Origin: Alphaproteobacteria bacterium | Lineage (GTDB): Bacteria; Pseudomonadota; Alphaproteobacteria; UBA8366; Aestuariispiraceae | Direction of reading: 5' to 3' | NCBI GenBank assembly: GCA_033344895.1 | Contig: JAWPMN010000001.1 | Coordinates: forward strand, 1,054,001-1,118,000 | Length of the DNA: 64,000 nt | Part shown: positions 3,731-64,000 of the stretch, one piece after another | How the letters are laid out: each line of letters begins with the position of its first letter | Position numbering within the stretch: position 1 is the stretch's first letter | Notes under the pieces: model-generated | Databases searched by the model: none | What the model saw: only the letters and a program-made list of their open reading frames with translations | What the model was told of the DNA's origin: nothing | Program-made: the position numbers and the translations under genes

Positions 3731-4207
3731 ATGCAGAAGGTTCCGATGACGCTGCGTGGCTATGAAGCCATGACGGCCGAGCTGAAAACCCTGAAGGGCA
3801 CTGAGCGCCCGGCGATCATTCAGGCGATCGCGGAAGCGCGTGAACATGGCGATCTGTCGGAGAACGCGGAATACCACGCCGCGCGCGAACGGCAGAGCTT
3901 CATCGAAGGCCGTATTGCGGAGCTGGAAGATCAGTCCAGCCGCGCCGAGGTGATCGACCCGTCCAAGCTGGATGGCGATTCCGTCAAGTTCGGGGCGACC
4001 GTCACGATTGCCGACTGCGAAACCGACGAAGAATCCGTCTACCAGATTGTTGGCGAGTTCGAGGCGGACCTGACTGAGAAGAAGATTTCGGTCACCAGCC
4101 CGATGGCACGCGCCATGATCGGAAAGTCAGTAGGCGACGTTTTCGAGGTCAACAGCCCCGGCGGATCCCGCGACTATGAAGTCGTTTCCGTGAAGTTTTC
4201 CGGATGA
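3731..4207 (+). CDS. greA: Transcription elongation factor GreA
   Basis: GreA rescues backtracked RNA polymerase by stimulating cleavage of the nascent transcript. The 158-residue length matches the family. The N-terminal coiled coil carries the acidic tip motif in [17 protein letters not shown] (about residues 36-52), where D and E at the tip act in the polymerase secondary channel. The C-terminal FKBP-like domain covers about residues 80-158. The start at 3731 gives [12 protein letters not shown], as in family members, although an ATG at 3746 has a better-placed AGAAGG. carB followed by greA is a common alphaproteobacterial order. The stop overlaps the next gene by 4 nt, suggesting translational coupling. 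Confidence 0.97.
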
Positions 4208-4410
4208 ACGATTTCTTCGCCCCTCTGACGAACTGGCTGAACGGGCTTACCGGCCTCGAATTCTCCATCCATGGTTATATCGCCATCCTGCTCACGCTGA
4301 TCGGGGTATTCGGTCTGTATGCAGCTCTGATGCTGCTGATGCATCGTTCGCGTGCAAGCGAGCACGACCAAGTCGTCTACGATTACCGGGACCCGCGGCA
4401 GGATTCGTAA
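4204..4410 (+). CDS. Small single-span membrane protein
   Basis: A 68-residue protein whose ATG overlaps the greA stop (ATGA), so it is probably translated by coupling. It has an amphipathic N-terminus ([16 protein letters not shown]), one strong transmembrane segment ([20 protein letters not shown], about residues 26-45) and a polar tail that should lie in the cytoplasm. The overlap and the clear membrane segment support a real gene. I do not recognise a named family. The chemotaxis receptor promoter lies directly downstream. Confidence 0.7.
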
Positions 4411-4423
4411 CATTCGCAGCATT

Positions 4424-4455
4424 TTAAGGTTATCCTAACCAGTTCTCCGTTAGAT
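4424..4455 (+). promoter_or_regulatory. CtrA-like promoter upstream of the chemotaxis receptor
   Basis: TTAAGGTTATCCTAACC at 4424-4440 fits the CtrA consensus TTAA-N7-TTAAC with one mismatch (CTAAC). A 9-nt gap is followed by TTAGAT at 4450-4455, a possible -10. The receptor ATG lies 47 nt beyond 4450. The same box, gap and element recur at 7113 and 62939. The CtrA assignment is inferred from the motif. Confidence 0.6.
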
Positions 4456-4496
4456 GGTACCCTACAAGAATAGGGGATATCCGGAGGAACCACCCA

Positions 4497-6188
4497 ATGC
4501 TGTCCAGATTGTCGATCAACGCGAAGCTGCTGCTGATCGTAGCGGCGCTGACACTTACCAGCGTCGTTGTGGCCTGGGTTACGCTGGACGCCATGCATAA
4601 GGCGATGGTGTCAGAGCGTCTTTCCAAGCTGAACGCCCTCACCGAAACCAGCGTCAATATCGCCGAATCCTATAACCAGCGCGTCGAAGCCGGAGAAATG
4701 AGCCGGGACGAGGCGATTCAGGAATGGGCCAAGGTCGTGTCGGCGATGACCTATGAGGGCAAGGAGTATCTCTTCGCCTGGGACCGCAAGGGCAATGCCA
4801 TCGCCCACATTCGTCCGGATATCGTGGGCAAGAACCTCTGGGACCTGCAGGACCCAAGCGGACAATACCTGATCCGCGACCTCTGGAAGATCTCGCTCGC
4901 GTCGGAAGAAGGCGGTCGATATGACTACCTCTGGCCGCCGGCGAAGGACGAACCGCCGATCGCGAAGGTCAGTTGGGCCCGCTATGTCGAACCGTTCGAT
5001 ATGATGGTCGGCACGGGCGTATTCATCGCGGATCTGGATGCGGCCTTCCAGGAACAGATGATCACGGTCGTGATCGTGATCGTTGTTCTGGCCGGACTTT
5101 CGATTCTGATTGCGTTGCTGATCGCGCGGGATATCGCCGGGTCCCTGGGACGTGTGGCCAAGGTCATGCAGCAGATGAACGATGGTGACCTGGACGTCGA
5201 CGTGCCGGATCAGAAACGCGGCGACGCGGTCGGAACGATCAGTCGGGCATTGGATGTGCTGCGCGCCGGCGCGAAGGAAGCATCGGTCCTGCGTGAGCAG
5301 CAGGCGGAAACCAAGGCCGCGGCGGAACGGGAACGCCGGGAACAGCTGGCCCGCATTGCCGAGGAATTCCGCGCGTCCGTCGAATCCGTGGTAGGCAAGG
5401 TTTCCAAGGCTTCCGAGGAAGTTCGCGCCGCAGCCAACGATATGTCGGAGATGGCGCAGTCGACCCAGCATCAGGCGGGCGAAGCCTCCGCGGCGACCAG
5501 CGAGTCGTCGGAGAACGTCGCCACCGTGGCCACGGCGACGGAGGAACTGATTGCCTCCATTCAGGAAATCGGCCGACAAACCGAAAGCGCGCGCTCCGTC
5601 AGCGAGGAAGCCGTGGGGGCCACGGAACGCTCAGAGCATACCGTACAGGGCCTGGTCGAGGCGGCCCAGAAGATCGGCGACGTGCTGGGCCTGATCGCCG
5701 AGATCGCGGAGCAGACCAACCTGCTGGCCCTGAACGCCACCATCGAGGCCGCCCGAGCAGGTGAGGCCGGCAAGGGCTTTGCCGTCGTCGCCAGCGAGGT
5801 CAAGGCCCTGGCGCAGCAGACGCAGCGGGCGACCGACGACATCAACTCCCATATCGATGGAATCCGGAAGGCTGTCGGCGACGCGGCGGGGGAAATGTCG
5901 AACATCCGGGATGTCATTTCGGATGTGTCCCGGTCGGCAACGGCGATCAGTGCCGCCATCGAGCAGCAGGCCGCCGCGACGCAGGAAATCAGCCGATCCA
6001 TCCAGCAGGCCGCCAGCGGTACCGAACAGGTCAGCAGCAACGTGGCCGCCGTGACCGATACGGCGCGCAGCGCGGGCGAGGTGGCGTCGCACCTGCTCAG
6101 TGCCGCGAACGCGCTGACGCAGGATTCGGTTGTCCTGCGCGATCAGGTCACTAAGTTCCTTGGCTCCCTGTCGGAGCAACAGAACTGA
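4497..6188 (+). CDS. Methyl-accepting chemotaxis protein with single Cache sensor
   Basis: This is a transmembrane chemoreceptor that controls CheA activity. The 563 residues show TM1 (about 8-29), a periplasmic single-Cache (sCache_2-type) domain (about 35-185, with [19 protein letters not shown] and the VSWARY...VGTGVFI ending), TM2 (about 187-209), HAMP (about 211-265) and a long signalling coiled coil. The conserved hairpin tip includes [18 protein letters not shown] near residues 402-419. There is no C-terminal CheR-binding pentapeptide. sCache_2 receptors often sense small carboxylates, but the ligand cannot be read here. The start has GGAGGAACCACCC ahead of ATG. A CtrA-like promoter precedes it. 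No che genes are nearby, so it is an orphan receptor. Confidence 0.95.
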
Positions 6189-6198
6189 TCGCAAGCCC

Positions 6199-7116
6199 AT
6201 GATTCGACCCGCCGCTGCCCTGATCGCCTTTGTAATCGCAATCGGGGTGGCGCGGGCCGAACCTGTTTTTCCCGACCTTGAAAGCGTCGACGTCCTGGAT
6301 GCCCGCAGCGGCGCCCCCCTCACCCTGGACGAGTTTGACGCACGGATCCGATCCGCCGACATCCTGTTGCTGGGCGAAGTGCACGACAACCCCATGCACC
6401 ATATCGGACAGGCCGCGATACTGCGCCAACGCTTCGCGAATGTGGACCGGCCCGCCAGCGTGGTCTTCGAAATGCTGCCCCGATCAAAACAGTCGACCAT
6501 TGATGCCTATCAGGGCGGTGCGGCCGGCTTTGCCGACGCGATGGGCTGGCACGACACCGGCTGGCCGGATGCGGCGATCTATCAACCGGTTTTTGACGCC
6601 GCATTCGCCTTGGAGGCCCGGCTGATCGCCGGCGATCTGGATCGGGATTTGATCCACACACTCTACAGCGACGGGACGGAAGCCCTCCCCTCTGCCGTGC
6701 TTCGCATGTTTCGATTGATGGACCCATTGCCGGATTCAGTGCGAAGCGAAATGACAGAGCTTCAATTCCGGTCCCATTGCGAGTTGTTCCCGCGCGAACG
6801 GATGGCGGGCATGATCACGATCCAGCGCGCCCGCGACGCCGCCCTGGCGGAGGCGGTAGCGGACGCCAGGCTGCGCTCGGGCGGACCGGTCGTCCTGATT
6901 GCAGGAACGGGTCACGTCCGCATCGATCATGGTGCCGGGGCTCTTCTGCGCCGTGCCCTTCCGGAGGATGTGGTTCTTGCCATCGGGTTCGTGGAGCGTG
7001 ATTCGTGGCAGGGCGCGCCGGCACCTTATGACCTGGTGATTGTAACCGACCCACAGGACCGACCCGATCCCTGCGACGCCTTGCGGAAAAGCCACGGGCG
7101 TTCCGGTTCCGATTAA
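6199..7116 (+). CDS. ChaN-like (haem-binding uptake, Tiki-like fold) secreted protein
   Basis: A 305-residue protein with a signal peptide (MIRPAAALIAFVIAIGVARA, then EP). It shows the ChaN family signatures LLGEVHDNPMHH (about residues 55-66), SVVFEMLPR and a late AGTGHVRIDHGAG. ChaN of Campylobacter is a lipoprotein that binds cofacial haem and is linked to iron uptake. This protein lacks an obvious lipobox Cys, so it may be soluble in the periplasm. The ATG at 6199 fits the signal peptide better than starts inside the receptor gene, which ends at 6188. Only 10 nt separate the two genes, so they are probably cotranscribed. Its stop codon overlaps the CtrA-like box of the next gene. Confidence 0.85.
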   Translation: MIRPAAALIAFVIAIGVARAEPVFPDLESVDVLDARSGAPLTLDEFDARIRSADILLLGEVHDNPMHHIGQAAILRQRFANVDRPASVVFEMLPRSKQSTIDAYQGGAAGFADAMGWHDTGWPDAAIYQPVFDAAFALEARLIAGDLDRDLIHTLYSDGTEALPSAVLRMFRLMDPLPDSVRSEMTELQFRSHCELFPRERMAGMITIQRARDAALAEAVADARLRSGGPVVLIAGTGHVRIDHGAGALLRRALPEDVVLAIGFVERDSWQGAPAPYDLVIVTDPQDRPDPCDALRKSHGRSGSD

Positions 7117-7145
7117 GGGTTGCGTAACCTTTGCCGACCTAGACT
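7113..7145 (+). promoter_or_regulatory. CtrA-like promoter of first PAS_5 gene
   Basis: TTAAGGGTTGCGTAACC at 7113-7129 matches TTAA-N7-TTAAC with one mismatch. A 9-nt gap is followed by CTAGACT at 7139-7145. The box overlaps the stop codon of the ChaN-like gene. The core TTTGCC-N3-CTAGACTT is also found before the second PAS_5 gene near 59896-59910. Confidence 0.6.
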
Positions 7146-7174: not shown

Positions 7175-7672
7175 ATGACCAGGCTGGAATTCGATGTATC
7201 CGCGCTGGACCATTCCAGCATTCGAGTGCGCAGGATCTACGACTACTGGAACGAGATTCGCGCCGGCCGATCCATGCCGTACCGGTCGGATTTCGATCCG
7301 ACGGACATTCCCCATCATCTTCCCGGCATTCTGTTGATCGATATCGAGGGGGTTCGCCCCGACGGAACCGGGATCTATCGCTATCGGGTTGTCGGCCAGT
7401 GGGAAGTGGCGGCGCGCGGTCACAACCCGACCGGATCCCTGGTGGAGGACGGCTTCTTCGGACCGAGCCTGGAAAGCTGCCTGACGGATTACGACACGGT
7501 TCGGCGGACCGGGACGCCGCTGTTCGCCCCGCTGGACTTCATCGATTCGAGGGGCCTGCACGTCAACGAATACTCGATCGTGCTGCCCTTCACCGACAAT
7601 GGGGTCGAGGTGTCCAAGATCCTGGTCTATTCCGAACGGCGTGTTCGCGCGGAAAACGACCTGCCTTACTAG
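7175..7672 (+). CDS. PAS_5-family (PF07310-like) protein
   Basis: A 165-residue single-domain protein resembling the PAS_5 family common in Rhodospirillales and rhizobia. Hallmarks are RRIYDYWNEIRAGR near the N-terminus, DFDPTDIPHHLPGILLIDI, YRYRVVGQWEVAARGHNPTG and a C-terminal LPFTDNGVEVSKILVY. These proteins have no output domain and their function is unproven; a sensory or ligand-binding role is inferred from the fold. I place the start at ATG 7175, because upstream in-frame starts (TTG 7145, ATG 7157) lie too close to the probable -10 at 7139-7145. A paralogue with a related promoter is at 59942. Confidence 0.85.
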   Translation: MTRLEFDVSALDHSSIRVRRIYDYWNEIRAGRSMPYRSDFDPTDIPHHLPGILLIDIEGVRPDGTGIYRYRVVGQWEVAARGHNPTGSLVEDGFFGPSLESCLTDYDTVRRTGTPLFAPLDFIDSRGLHVNEYSIVLPFTDNGVEVSKILVYSERRVRAENDLPY

Positions 7673-59941: not shown

Positions 59942-60445
59942 ATGGGACGGGCGATCCAGCCGGGGTTTGAGTACGGGACGGCATTCCTCACAGATTGCGG
60001 CGACGACATCCGTGAAATCTACCGGTACTGGGACGCCCGACGGGGAACGCGGCGCAGTCCCGCCCGCACGGATATTGATCCGCTCGACTTCCACCGGCTG
60101 CTTCCGGGCGTCACCCTGCTGAACGTTGTCTCGACGGACCCGCTCGACCTGCAATACAAGGTCGTCGGTACGCGAGAGGTCGCATTTCGAGGGCGCGATC
60201 CGACCGGGTTGACGGTTTCCGAGGCCTTTCACGGCCCCAGTCCGGAAAACGCCTTGCGAAGCTACGGTTCCGTGATCGAACAGCATGAACCGCTGTTCCG
60301 CCGCGACACCCTGCTCAGCCGGTCGGGCAACATGGTTCGGGAAGAACGCATATTCCTTCCGCTGTCAGCGGATGGCGAGACGGTCGACCAGATCCTGCTC
60401 TATGCCTCGGACCACAAGGACACGGCCGGCACCTTCGGACCCTAG
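59942..60445 (+). CDS. PAS_5-family (PF07310-like) protein, paralogue of the one at 7175
   Basis: A 167-residue PAS_5 protein: DDIREIYRYWDARRGTRRSP, DPLDFHRLLPGVTLLNVV, LQYKVVGTREVAFRGRDPTG and FLPLSADGETVDQILLY. It has the same layout as the copy at 7175 with moderate identity and likewise no output domain. ATG 59942 is used; an upstream in-frame TTG at 59897 lies in the promoter core. The stop overlaps the convergent cydB end by 4 nt. Confidence 0.85.
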   Translation: MGRAIQPGFEYGTAFLTDCGDDIREIYRYWDARRGTRRSPARTDIDPLDFHRLLPGVTLLNVVSTDPLDLQYKVVGTREVAFRGRDPTGLTVSEAFHGPSPENALRSYGSVIEQHEPLFRRDTLLSRSGNMVREERIFLPLSADGETVDQILLYASDHKDTAGTFGP

Positions 60446-61452
60446 TCGTAGCGCAACTCCGTCGCCTTGCCGCGAAACACCGTGTAGGCGAAGACCGTGT
60501 AGACCCCGATGATCGGCAGGACAAAACCCGTTCCGACCAGGATCAGCAGAAGACTTTCGGACGCCGCCGCCGATTCATAGATCGTCAACTGCTCCGGCAC
60601 GACGTAGGGATAGAAGGAATAGGCCAGCCCCGCGAAGCCAAGCAGAAAGATTCCAGCCATCAGCACCATCGGCAGCCAGCAGAGCCGATCTTCGGGCCGC
60701 GGCATCCGGCTGAGGCAAATCCAGAGGATCAGGAACAGAATTCCCGCCCCGATCGGCAGCGGCGCCAGATAGGCGATTTCAGGCAGGATGAACCACTTGT
60801 CGAAAATGCGCGGACTGACCAGAGGGCTGGCCAGTGAAATCGATGCCATCCCCAGTGCCGTCAGCATCAGGGCACCCTTTGCCCAGCGGATCGCCTTGCG
60901 CTGCAGTGCCTCCTCGGTCTTGTAAATCAGCCAGCACGCGCCGATGGCGACATAGGCACTGGCAAGACACAAGGCGATCAGCATGGCAAAGGCTACGTTC
61001 GCCGCCGTCCATTCCAGCCCCATGACATACAGCCCCAACATGAACCCCTGGGACAGCGCGGTCATGAGAGAACCGGTGAAAAACAACCGGTTCCAGAGTG
61101 CCTTGTGCGGCGGCGACACCTTGGCCCGGAATTCAAAGGCGACGCCGCGCAGGATCAACCCCACCAGCATCACCGCGACAGGCAGGTATAGCGCGGTCAG
61201 TATCGTGCCATGGGCGACGGGGAACGCGACCAGCAGCAGCCCGACCGCAAGCACCAGCCAGGTCTCATTGGCATCCCAGAACGGGCCGATGGAGGCCACC
61301 ATGCGGTCCTGCTGTGCCGGGTCGCCCGCCGGCATCAGAATTCCGATGCCGAGATCATAGCCATCCAGGATGACGTAAATCAGGATCGACAGGCCCATAA
61401 GGCCGGCGAACACGACGGGAAGCCAAGCGGTCGGATCATCGAAAAAGGTCAT
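60442..61452 (-). CDS. cydB: Cytochrome bd-type (CIO) quinol oxidase subunit II
   Basis: A 336-residue subunit with about eight or nine spans; ILDGYDLGIGILMP near residue 30 is the standard signature. It is the structural partner of CydA. It follows cydA by 6 nt. The gene is similar to CioB of cyanide-insensitive oxidases. No cydX-like small gene follows, and cydDC is not in the window. Confidence 0.95.
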   Translation of the reverse strand: MTFFDDPTAWLPVVFAGLMGLSILIYVILDGYDLGIGILMPAGDPAQQDRMVASIGPFWDANETWLVLAVGLLLVAFPVAHGTILTALYLPVAVMLVGLILRGVAFEFRAKVSPPHKALWNRLFFTGSLMTALSQGFMLGLYVMGLEWTAANVAFAMLIALCLASAYVAIGACWLIYKTEEALQRKAIRWAKGALMLTALGMASISLASPLVSPRIFDKWFILPEIAYLAPLPIGAGILFLILWICLSRMPRPEDRLCWLPMVLMAGIFLLGFAGLAYSFYPYVVPEQLTIYESAAASESLLLILVGTGFVLPIIGVYTVFAYTVFRGKATELRYD

Positions 61453-61458
61453 TTCCCC

Positions 61459-62829
61459 TCACTCCGCCGGTTGTTTCAGGCCCGCGGGCTCTTCACCCGC
61501 CCCCGGTTCCTGGGTGCCGCCTCTTGCCGCCTTCGCGGACAGGCCGAACAAGGTGGCGATATAGACCGCGGTCAGGCCCGCATAGGCGACCAGATAAATC
61601 GCGAGGGTCGTGCCGATCATGCCCCCGGCGACATCGGACGCCGCTTCTTCGGTTGTCAGAACGCCGGTCACCAGCCACGGCTGACGGCCGATCTCCGTCG
61701 TGTACCAGCCAGCCAGCGTGGCGCCCCAGCCTGAGAAGGTCATCGCCACCAAGGTCCAGCTCAGCGTCCGACCCGGCGCGCGACCGCCGCGGCACCGCCA
61801 GGCAGCCCACCAGGACACGGCCAGCATCAGCACGCCGACACCGACCATGATGCGGAAGGCGAAGAAAACCGGGGCGACCGGCGGGTGTTCCACCGTACCA
61901 TCCTCGGCAACGAAATCGTTCAGCCCCGGAACCTCCCCTTCCGCCATATGGCTCAGGATCCAGCTGGCGCCGTCGGGAATCTCGATCGTGTACCGGTTTT
62001 CGCGCACCGTTTCATCGGGCAGACCGAACAGGACCAGCGGCACGTTGCCCCGCGTGTCCCAGTTCGCTTCCATCGCCGCGACCTTGGCGGGCTGATGTTC
62101 CAACGTATTCAGACCATGCAGATCGCCGGCGAGGATCTGGACCGGGATCAGCACCGCGGCAATTCCGATCCCGGTCTTCAGGGCGGCGCGGTTGCCCGCC
62201 CCGGTGTCGCCGCGCAGATGCCTGTAAGCCGACAGACCGGCGATCAGGAACGCCGCCGTCAGGCCCGAGGCCAGCAGCATATGCGCCAGGCGATACGGCA
62301 TGGATGGGTTGAAGACAATGGCCAGCCAGTCGGTTGCGTGGGCCACACCGTCCCGCATCTCGAACCCGGTCGGTGTGTGCATCCAGGAATTCAGAACCAG
62401 AATCCAGAAGGCGGAAACGGTCGTCCCGAAGGCGACGAGGAATGTGGCGAGCGTGTGGACGCGCCCGGAGACCCGCCGAAACCCGAACAGCATGATGCCC
62501 AGGAACACCGCCTCCAGGAAAAAGGCGGTCAGGATCTCATAGGCCAGGAGCGGCCCGGCGATATTGCCGACCACTTCCATGTATCCGGGCCAGTTGGTGC
62601 CGAACTGGAAACTCATCGTGATGCCGGAGACCACCCCCATGGCGAAGGACAGGGCAAAGATCTTTACCCAGAAGAAATAGGCCTCCATCCACTTCTCGTC
62701 GCCGGTTCGGGCATAGGACAGCTTGAAATAGAGCAGTATCCAGCCAAGCGCGATCGTGATCGTCGGGAACAGGATGTGGAAAGAAATGTTCGCGCCGAAC
62801 TGAATACGGGCCAGCAGCAGGGCATCCAT
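61459..62829 (-). CDS. cydA: Cytochrome bd-type (CIO) quinol oxidase subunit I
   Basis: CydA oxidises quinol and reduces O2 at the haem b595/d site with high oxygen affinity. The 456 residues, shorter than the 522 of E. coli CydA, imply a short Q-loop as in CioA. RIQFGANISFHILFPTITI places the haem ligand His at residue 18; GVVSGITMSFQFGTNWPGY and GFRRVSGRVHTLATFLVAFGT follow. AGGAGA precedes ATG 62829, and a perfect inverted repeat lies just upstream. Confidence 0.95.
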   Translation of the reverse strand: MDALLLARIQFGANISFHILFPTITIALGWILLYFKLSYARTGDEKWMEAYFFWVKIFALSFAMGVVSGITMSFQFGTNWPGYMEVVGNIAGPLLAYEILTAFFLEAVFLGIMLFGFRRVSGRVHTLATFLVAFGTTVSAFWILVLNSWMHTPTGFEMRDGVAHATDWLAIVFNPSMPYRLAHMLLASGLTAAFLIAGLSAYRHLRGDTGAGNRAALKTGIGIAAVLIPVQILAGDLHGLNTLEHQPAKVAAMEANWDTRGNVPLVLFGLPDETVRENRYTIEIPDGASWILSHMAEGEVPGLNDFVAEDGTVEHPPVAPVFFAFRIMVGVGVLMLAVSWWAAWRCRGGRAPGRTLSWTLVAMTFSGWGATLAGWYTTEIGRQPWLVTGVLTTEEAASDVAGGMIGTTLAIYLVAYAGLTAVYIATLFGLSAKAARGGTQEPGAGEEPAGLKQPAE

Positions 62830-62938: not shown

Positions 62939-62970
62939 CTAACAGAATTTTAACCTGATTTCCGCTACCC
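62939..62970 (+). promoter_or_regulatory. CtrA-like promoter upstream of the degenerate GGDEF-EAL gene
   Basis: CTAACAGAATTTTAACC (62939-62955) matches TTAA-N7-TTAACC with one mismatch. A 9-nt gap leads to CTACCC at 62965-62970. The ATG at 63012 lies 47 nt beyond 62965, the same distance as in the chemotaxis receptor promoter at 4450. Confidence 0.6.
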
Positions 62971-63011
62971 TTTCCCGACCCGACTTGCAGGGGCTTTTGG
63001 AGTTAGGTGGA

Positions 63012-64000
63012 ATGTGCGCTAAAAAGTGCGGATCAATGACAGAGTTTCTGTCGATTGTTGGATCGGCCGGCGGTACCGACTCTCTGAATCTCGGACAGAT
63101 TGTCTGCCTCGGCACGGAAGACCTTCGCGACCGGTTGGGCGAGGAACGCTGGACGAAGGCGCAGGCCCATATCGGCGAAGTCATCGAAAAGTCGATCGCT
63201 GAACACTGCAATGCGCAGGATGCCTTCTTCAAATGCCGGGACGCCTCCTTCCTTATCGTATTTTCGACGCGCAGTGCCGATAAATCAGAACTGATCGCAG
63301 CCGCCATCGCCAATGCGGTGAACAAGATTCTGATGGGCACAGAGGATCTGCGCGCAGTCACGGTACGCGGCATCAGCCAGTCCGGCAGCCACCTGACGCT
63401 GACCGAGGCAAAGGATCCGCTGGGCATGCTGGACGCCTTGAAGAACAAGGCGCACAAGGTTTCCATCAGCGATGACGATGCCGCACCGGCCGCAGCGAAA
63501 CCGACCACGGTCGAAGCGCAAGCGAAAAATCCTGGCCAGACGCGCACCGGGACCGGCGGCAGCATGCCGTCCATCCCGAAGGGGAACCGGGCCGAACTGT
63601 TGGCCAAGTTGAGCATCGTCAAGGACGCACCGGTCGAGTTCCGGTTCCTTCCCATCTGGTTCAATGGTGAACGGAAGATCTGGACCTTCAATTGCGCACC
63701 GATGCGCCCCTCCACCATGGTCGGGGAGACGACCTGGAATTATGGCGTCCTTGGTGCCAAGCCGCAGATTTCCGAAGTCGTCGACCTGGACATCGCAGCG
63801 CTGGAGCACGGGCTGATCGAACTGACCGACCATCTGGTCGCCGGTCGACAGTGTCAGCTGGTGCCGAACATCCATTTCGAGACCCTGACGAACTATCGGG
63901 GTCGGAACGAGATTTCGGCGTTGCTGGGCGCGCTGCCGCAACGTCTGCGCCAGAGCATCCTGCCCAATATTATGTATGTTCCGCAGGGGGTTCCGGACGG
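63012..64000 (+). CDS. Degenerate GGDEF-EAL-like protein, partial (runs off right edge)
   Basis: An open frame of 329 codons continues past the edge. The N-terminal part (about residues 25-115; RWTKAQAHIGEVIEKSIAEH, DAFFKCRDASFLIVFS, ELIAAAIANAVNKILMG) has the helix-strand order of a GGDEF domain with the GGDEF loop replaced by CRDAS. After an Ala/Lys/Pro linker (about 155-190), FLPIWFNGERKIWTFNCAP, ISEVVDLDIAALEHGLIEL and LVPNIHFETLTNYRGRNEIS follow the order of an EAL domain, but the EAL triad is lost. If so, it would be an inactive c-di-GMP-type scaffold or sensor. GGAG lies 9 nt before ATG 63012. A CtrA-like promoter precedes it. Confidence 0.65.
   Translation, partial: MCAKKCGSMTEFLSIVGSAGGTDSLNLGQIVCLGTEDLRDRLGEERWTKAQAHIGEVIEKSIAEHCNAQDAFFKCRDASFLIVFSTRSADKSELIAAAIANAVNKILMGTEDLRAVTVRGISQSGSHLTLTEAKDPLGMLDALKNKAHKVSISDDDAAPAAAKPTTVEAQAKNPGQTRTGTGGSMPSIPKGNRAELLAKLSIVKDAPVEFRFLPIWFNGERKIWTFNCAPMRPSTMVGETTWNYGVLGAKPQISEVVDLDIAALEHGLIELTDHLVAGRQCQLVPNIHFETLTNYRGRNEISALLGALPQRLRQSILPNIMYVPQGVPD

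Follow-up and report, generated by a model that had tools for sequence, protein, structure and literature searches.

Candidate CtrA-activated promoters before a PAS_5 gene and an orphan-family gene, and a CtrA-type box between chpT and cheA

Introduction

Do three CtrA-like motifs that lie far apart, each followed at the same distance by the same kind of short element and each placed before a gene assigned to signaling, mark the promoters of one CtrA regulon? This question is raised by the 64-kb stretch of DNA analysed here (the window, G000:C1:1054001-1118000, from a 4.64 Mb genome in a single contig), for which an initial annotation proposed such a regulon, with the motif covering the -35 region and a YTA(G/C) element as the -10. 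In Caulobacter crescentus, CtrA-activated promoters are described as carrying the full motif TTAA-N7-TTAA with its 5' base near -35, and Zhou et al. place the full motif at -39 of both ctrA P2 and P2 of the CCNA_00875-00877 operon (PMC4287350). Most CtrA-activated promoters are likewise reported to contain a single site, located at -35 (PMC11264516). Signal transduction was enriched in the predicted CtrA regulons of 15 organisms and motility in those of 9 (Brilli 2010, PMC2877005), and the primordial role of CtrA has been suggested to lie in motility control (PMC8116508, citing Greene 2012).

Results

We find the three motifs on the plus strand at 4424-4440 (TTAAGGTTATCCTAACC, site 1), 7113-7129 (TTAAGGGTTGCGTAACC, site 2) and 62939-62955 (CTAACAGAATTTTAACC, site 3), exactly as initially described. 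Read in the sequence, each fits TTAA-N7-TTAACC with one mismatch and is followed after a gap of 9 nt by TTAG (4450), CTAG (7139) and CTAC (62965), respectively, and at sites 1 and 3 the element's first base and the ATG (4497 and 63012) are 47 nt apart. They are the sole matches at up to one mismatch in the window, as compared to a mean of 0.24 matches in 100 shuffles, none of which got to three, and we regard both the motifs and the 9-nt spacing as confirmed to be real and above chance. At two mismatches the excess over shuffles is weak (13 observed against a mean of 7.15, a number equalled by 3 of the 100 shuffles). The -10 itself appears to be better described as a TANNNT hexamer beginning 10 nt after the box than as YTAG beginning at 9 nt, and with this hexamer taken as the -10 (-12 to -7) the box would start at -39.

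Site 2 (TTAA-N7-GTAACC) would by this reckoning occupy -39 to -23 of a single-domain PAS_5 gene (7175-7672, plus strand, Pfam PF07310), with a predicted -10 of TAGACT at 7140-7145 and a predicted transcription start at about 7152. The gene encodes 165 amino acids from an ATG at 7175 that was picked by our gene-calling script together with an alignment to G011, the nearest relative compared, where the start is conserved and the protein 76% identical. All 10 box bases are kept in G011, as compared to 4/7 bases of the N7 spacer and 69% identity in the intergenic flank, and TAGACT is identical there at the same 10-nt distance; since the TTAA of the box overlaps the TAA stop codon of the ChaN-like gene upstream, this half-site is partly fixed in any case. 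Beyond G011 the layout was absent from six of seven PAS_5 loci (41-52% identity, up to two mismatches), the exception being a relative from another genus, G005 (52% identity), which has TTAA-N7-TTTAAC-N10-TAGCGT, a box with two mismatches and the same 10-nt spacing. The PAS_5 query has 20 matches in this genome. One of the PAS_5 genes, the second in the window (59942), was considered as a further member and not counted, having GTTAAC and TAGACT and lacking the second half-site.

Site 3 (CTAA-N7-TTAACC) lies upstream of what we call gene 3, which begins at 63012 on the plus strand with a start common to G011, extends to 63998 and on beyond the window, and encodes 458 amino acids in all. Its predicted -10 is TACCCT at 62966-62971, 10 nt past the box, with a predicted transcription start at about 62978. 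Here too all 10 box bases are kept in G011 (N7 5/7, intergenic flank 52% identical), only 1% of slid masks being as conserved, and the hexamer reads TACACT in G011 with the 10-nt distance unchanged. The gene 3 protein is 82% identical to its G011 counterpart, although the upstream neighbor is not the same: in G011 the counterpart of the PAS_5 gene at 59942 is directly upstream of gene 3, suggesting that the region was rearranged and the putative gene 3 promoter kept. Two minus-strand genes, one of them encoding cytochrome bd subunit I, lie between 59942 and gene 3 in the window (60442-62829). A tandem paralogue lies 3' of gene 3, outside the window. In six gene 3 loci beyond G011 the layout was found in none at up to two mismatches, two of them having TTAA-N7-TTAA without TANNNT at 10 nt. 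Thus conservation among orthologues, the natural test of the proposal, holds for sites 2 and 3 in G011 and weakly for site 2 in G005, and fails in most further relatives and, as shown below, for site 1 in G011.

The claim that all three sites precede signaling genes was upheld by Pfam for the chemoreceptor behind site 1 and for the PAS_5 gene, and not for gene 3, which had been called a degenerate GGDEF-EAL protein. The full-length protein (458 aa) matches no Pfam family at E 0.01 or at E 1, a GGDEF match (E 0.19) appears in just one of ten aligned family members, and a profile of the family returned three weak matches in the PDB with no GGDEF or EAL chain among them; these searches do not support the GGDEF-EAL assignment.

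Site 1 differs from the other two. It stands upstream of a chemoreceptor gene (4497-6188, plus strand; sCache_2, HAMP and MCPsignal by Pfam) whose product is 93% identical in G011, where only 8/10 box bases are kept (a level that 28% of slid masks reach). The G011 counterpart reads CTAAGG...CTACCC, and TTAG has become TCAG so that the YTAG element is gone. Because both box bases and this element are lost in G011, we consider site 1 doubtful as a CtrA site and more probably a look-alike that is due to chance or specific to the lineage. The hexamer 10 nt past its box is TAGATG, which is not a TANNNT, and the likelier -10 of the chemoreceptor gene would be TACCCT at 4458-4463 (plus strand), kept in G011 and 17 nt past the box. 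A canonical 17-nt spacing from CTAACC to TACCCT was tried as a description of the sites and fits only this one. Among seven further chemoreceptor loci (orthology being uncertain at 36-40% identity) the layout was found at up to two mismatches in one, a G002 relative (40% identity, A+T-rich upstream region) with ATAA-N7-TTAA-N10-TAAACT at -74, site 1 being at -73. In a G008 relative a box lies at -157, followed after 10 nt by TAGAAG, and relatives in G013, G012 and G001 and two in G004 showed no such layout at the same threshold. Boxes do occur near two other chemoreceptor-type genes of this genome (2595461 and 4545598). Just 5' of the chemoreceptor gene a small predicted ORF (4204-4410), by eye a membrane protein, overlaps the end of greA, and G011 and G013 read similarly there.

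Searched over the whole genome, the motif gave a divided answer. The box alone is less common than its reversed control (44 against 83 matches), the 44 matches representing 35 distinct boxes. In terms of location, 33 of these 35 lie outside predicted genes as compared to 12 of 21 reversed-control sites (from 20 loci taken of the 83 control matches; Fisher p 0.0013), with the caveat that genes at these loci were called by a codon-usage script rather than a standard gene finder and may be missed (coding fell below 40% in 3/20 control loci), which would inflate the figure for boxes and controls alike. The most frequent offset of TANNNT from the box is exactly 10 nt, both in this genome (4 of 44 oriented boxes) and in G011 (6 of 48), and the intergenic TANNNT frequency would give 0.37 and 0.41 boxes, respectively; sites 2 and 3 helped to define this offset, and when they and their G011 counterparts are set aside the counts are 2/42 and 4/46, two of them shared. 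For the composite of box and downstream -10 element at up to one mismatch we count 5 against 0 for the reversed control in this genome and 7 against 3 in G011, and all four own composites with an intact TANNNT recur in G011, namely sites 2 and 3, one before cheA and one before a small ORF at genome position 2741232. Over all 14 genomes of the family the composite shows no excess over the reversed control (57 against 59).

An aligned G011 box at up to one mismatch was found for 15 of the 35 boxes, 14 of them clear since the pair L011/L140 aligns at just 7/10 bases. The share of slid masks that equal the box in conservation is below 5% for only five of the 15, the other ten not standing out because their flanks are conserved enough; in four of the 15 the N7 is fully conserved too. 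As for the proposed enrichment before signaling genes, 12 of 34 scanned facing genes had signaling assignments as compared to 1 of 10 controls (Fisher p 0.24), which does not demonstrate it, and 9/43 facing and 4/14 control genes were not scanned, among the latter one (L243) that is by its coordinates the PAS-chemoreceptor gene of the box at 2595461.

The genome does encode the regulator. A CtrA orthologue (G000:C1:4456604-4457275) scores 402 bits against NF045991, for which the cut-off is 350, and its receiver part (residues 1-118) has as its best PDB match the 'Cell cycle response regulator CtrA'; several other response regulators match the CtrA model, over almost the full length of the model, below the cut-off. 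The ctrA gene is divergent from a gene for a FliI-like ATPase accompanied by a weak FliJ match (24.5 bits, cut-off 28.4). A ChpT gene (3414328-3415005), matching solved ChpT/phosphotransferase chains, is directly followed by cheA (Hpt, H-kinase_dim and HATPase domains) and then, by eye, by cheY, cheB and cheR, and between chpT and cheA we find TAAA-N7-TTAACC-N10-TACCTT. G011 also carries PAS_5, chpT and che genes.

This gap was surveyed across the order. Of 43 genomes searched 25 had chpT at E 1e-12, and four were dropped, G003 and G012 for contig ends and G009 and G010 because no cheA start was seen after chpT. TTAA-N7-TTAA (up to one mismatch) was present in the chpT-cheA gap of all 21 remaining genomes, one listed in each, as compared to 12 genomes for spacings of 6 and 8, at most 7 for other spacings and at most 6 for three control strings; being related, the 21 genomes are not independent. 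TANNNT stands exactly 10 nt past this box in seven of the ten own-family genomes (G013 has TACCTA, G001 and G002 have none) and in none of 11 genomes from other families, where the -10 must therefore differ if the box is a promoter. A literature search short of full-text depth returned no published account of the chpT-cheA box. In G009 and G010, which belong to the same genus (L287 and L288), the second half-site after chpT is changed by eye. We also observe there that chpT is followed by a CheY-like gene (by eye), and that a chemoreceptor query gave one weak match in the former and none in the latter.

Flagellar genes, before which the motif might also have been expected, almost never carry it. 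In the flagellar region (112 predicted genes in overlapping stretches of 126.6 kb here and 140 kb in G011) two of the 112 are preceded by a box at up to two mismatches, and G011 shares just the one before a FlaF-like gene (by eye); a half-site with TANNNT at the CtrA spacing precedes none of the 112. The main flagellar operons thus show no visible sign of being controlled directly by CtrA, and diverged sites or half-sites may be present.

Discussion

Taken together, our observations suggest that sites 2 and 3 are probably CtrA-activated promoters within a modest regulon that has the che operon among its members and is weighted toward sensing genes. For these two sites we infer from the sequence CtrA binding, activation rather than repression, the transcription starts and the form of polymerase. 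Phosphorylated CtrA would bind TTAA-N7-TTAACC across -39 to -23, where it would stand in for a good -35 element and help the housekeeping RNA polymerase to use a weak TANNNT -10 at -12 to -7, and the same arrangement may serve the che operon, in which cheA comes directly after chpT. A regulon with three promoters, as originally proposed, is in this sense partly supported: the box and spacing conserved in G011 at sites 2 and 3, the CtrA orthologue and the composite before cheA speak for it, while site 1 is doubtful and the -10 is more aptly a TANNNT than a YTA element.

It is rather unlikely that all three sites are CtrA promoters and that site 1 either decayed in G011 or arose in this species. 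The site 1 box is intact in the window, boxes lie near two other chemoreceptor-type genes, and the G002 and G008 relatives have boxes at -74 and -157, the former with TAAACT after N10 and the latter with TAGAAG; however, in G011 the box (8/10) and the YTAG are changed and the box is no better kept than neighboring bases, five other relatives (G013, G012, G001 and two from G004) are without the layout, and the site has TAGATG where a TANNNT would be expected. Ordinary housekeeping promoters, activator-free and with an A+T-rich -35 that merely resembles a CtrA box, are an improbable explanation. A+T-rich patterns do gather between genes anyway, as the 12 of 21 reversed-control sites illustrate, the family-wide composite counts equal the control and ten of the 15 shared boxes are not clearly more conserved than their flanks, but at sites 2 and 3 the N7 drifts and both half-sites stay, the offset from box to hexamer is fixed, and in the chpT-cheA gaps it is the N7 spacing that occurs in 21/21 genomes with other spacings in 12 or fewer.

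More improbable still, in our estimation, is repression by CtrA bound to these boxes, or their occupation by a different OmpR-type regulator whose half-site is similar. The response regulators that match the CtrA model nearly full length below its cut-off would offer candidates, and CtrA is described as also repressing through half-sites over the -10 (PMC4287350), whereas the boxes here precede the predicted -10 and take the place described for activating sites. A sigma-28 promoter was considered as well. Sigma-28 promoters have the pattern TAAA-N15-GCCGATAA, and this reading was rejected on account of a spacing that varies among the sites by eye and a GCC that is lost in G011 at site 2.

Viewed as CtrA-activated promoters, sites 2 and 3 appear to be new members of a kind known from Caulobacter, and that they are an ordinary extension of a known regulon is well supported. 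The box is the same as in Caulobacter crescentus and so is its position relative to transcription starts that are predicted here; because our inferred -39 equals the -39 reported there, the architecture of box plus -10 is already known (PMC4287350). Caulobacter crescentus differs in that the flagellar region here has almost no full boxes. The che operon of Caulobacter is reportedly CtrA-dependent, according to work by Jones from 2001. The fla2 promoters of Rhodobacter sphaeroides, which have an invariant A at -11, similarly carry a CtrA box upstream of the start, and in flgB2p a mutation in either half-site reduced activity; unlike the N7 boxes here, the half-sites of flgB2p and fliI2p are 6 bp apart and their targets are flagellar operons (PMC6180460). 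The PAS_5 protein, when started at 7175, is like MopJ of Caulobacter in having a single PAS_5 domain and 165 amino acids, a likeness of domain and length (PMC4432633). MopJ promotes CtrA accumulation and acts in the CtrA pathway; as distinct from the PAS_5 gene here with its CtrA-type box, mopJ is described as GcrA-activated and (p)ppGpp-induced (PMC4432633). With the PAS_5 protein and the orphan family of gene 3, two new candidate CtrA targets can be named. To our knowledge the gene 3 family is not a known CtrA target.

A CtrA-type box between chpT and cheA in every genome examined, along with few full flagellar boxes here, would point to chemotaxis as a conserved CtrA target in the order. 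We can tentatively extend this to a possible scheme in which the CtrA phosphorelay of this order is wired mainly to chemosensory output: the order-wide chpT-cheA box would drive che, lineage-specific boxes would recruit the MopJ-like PAS_5 gene and the tandem gene 3 family, the main flagellar operons would be outside direct control, and lineages without cheA at this position would have lost the second half-site.

Several other boxes of this genome deserve mention in their own right. Three TTAA half-sites are arrayed before a GGDEF gene at L004 (G000:C1:3471871-3471900), in G011 too. At L010 (G000:C1:916354) a conserved box precedes a small gene of the sigma-70 family that encodes a PhyR_sigma2-type domain and may be concerned with the general stress response. 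Lastly, L262 (G000:C1:4631266-4631298, minus strand) has TAAG-N7-TTAACC-N10-TAGACT between genes that are by eye ClpS-like and ClpA-like, also present in G011; it may connect CtrA with proteolysis.
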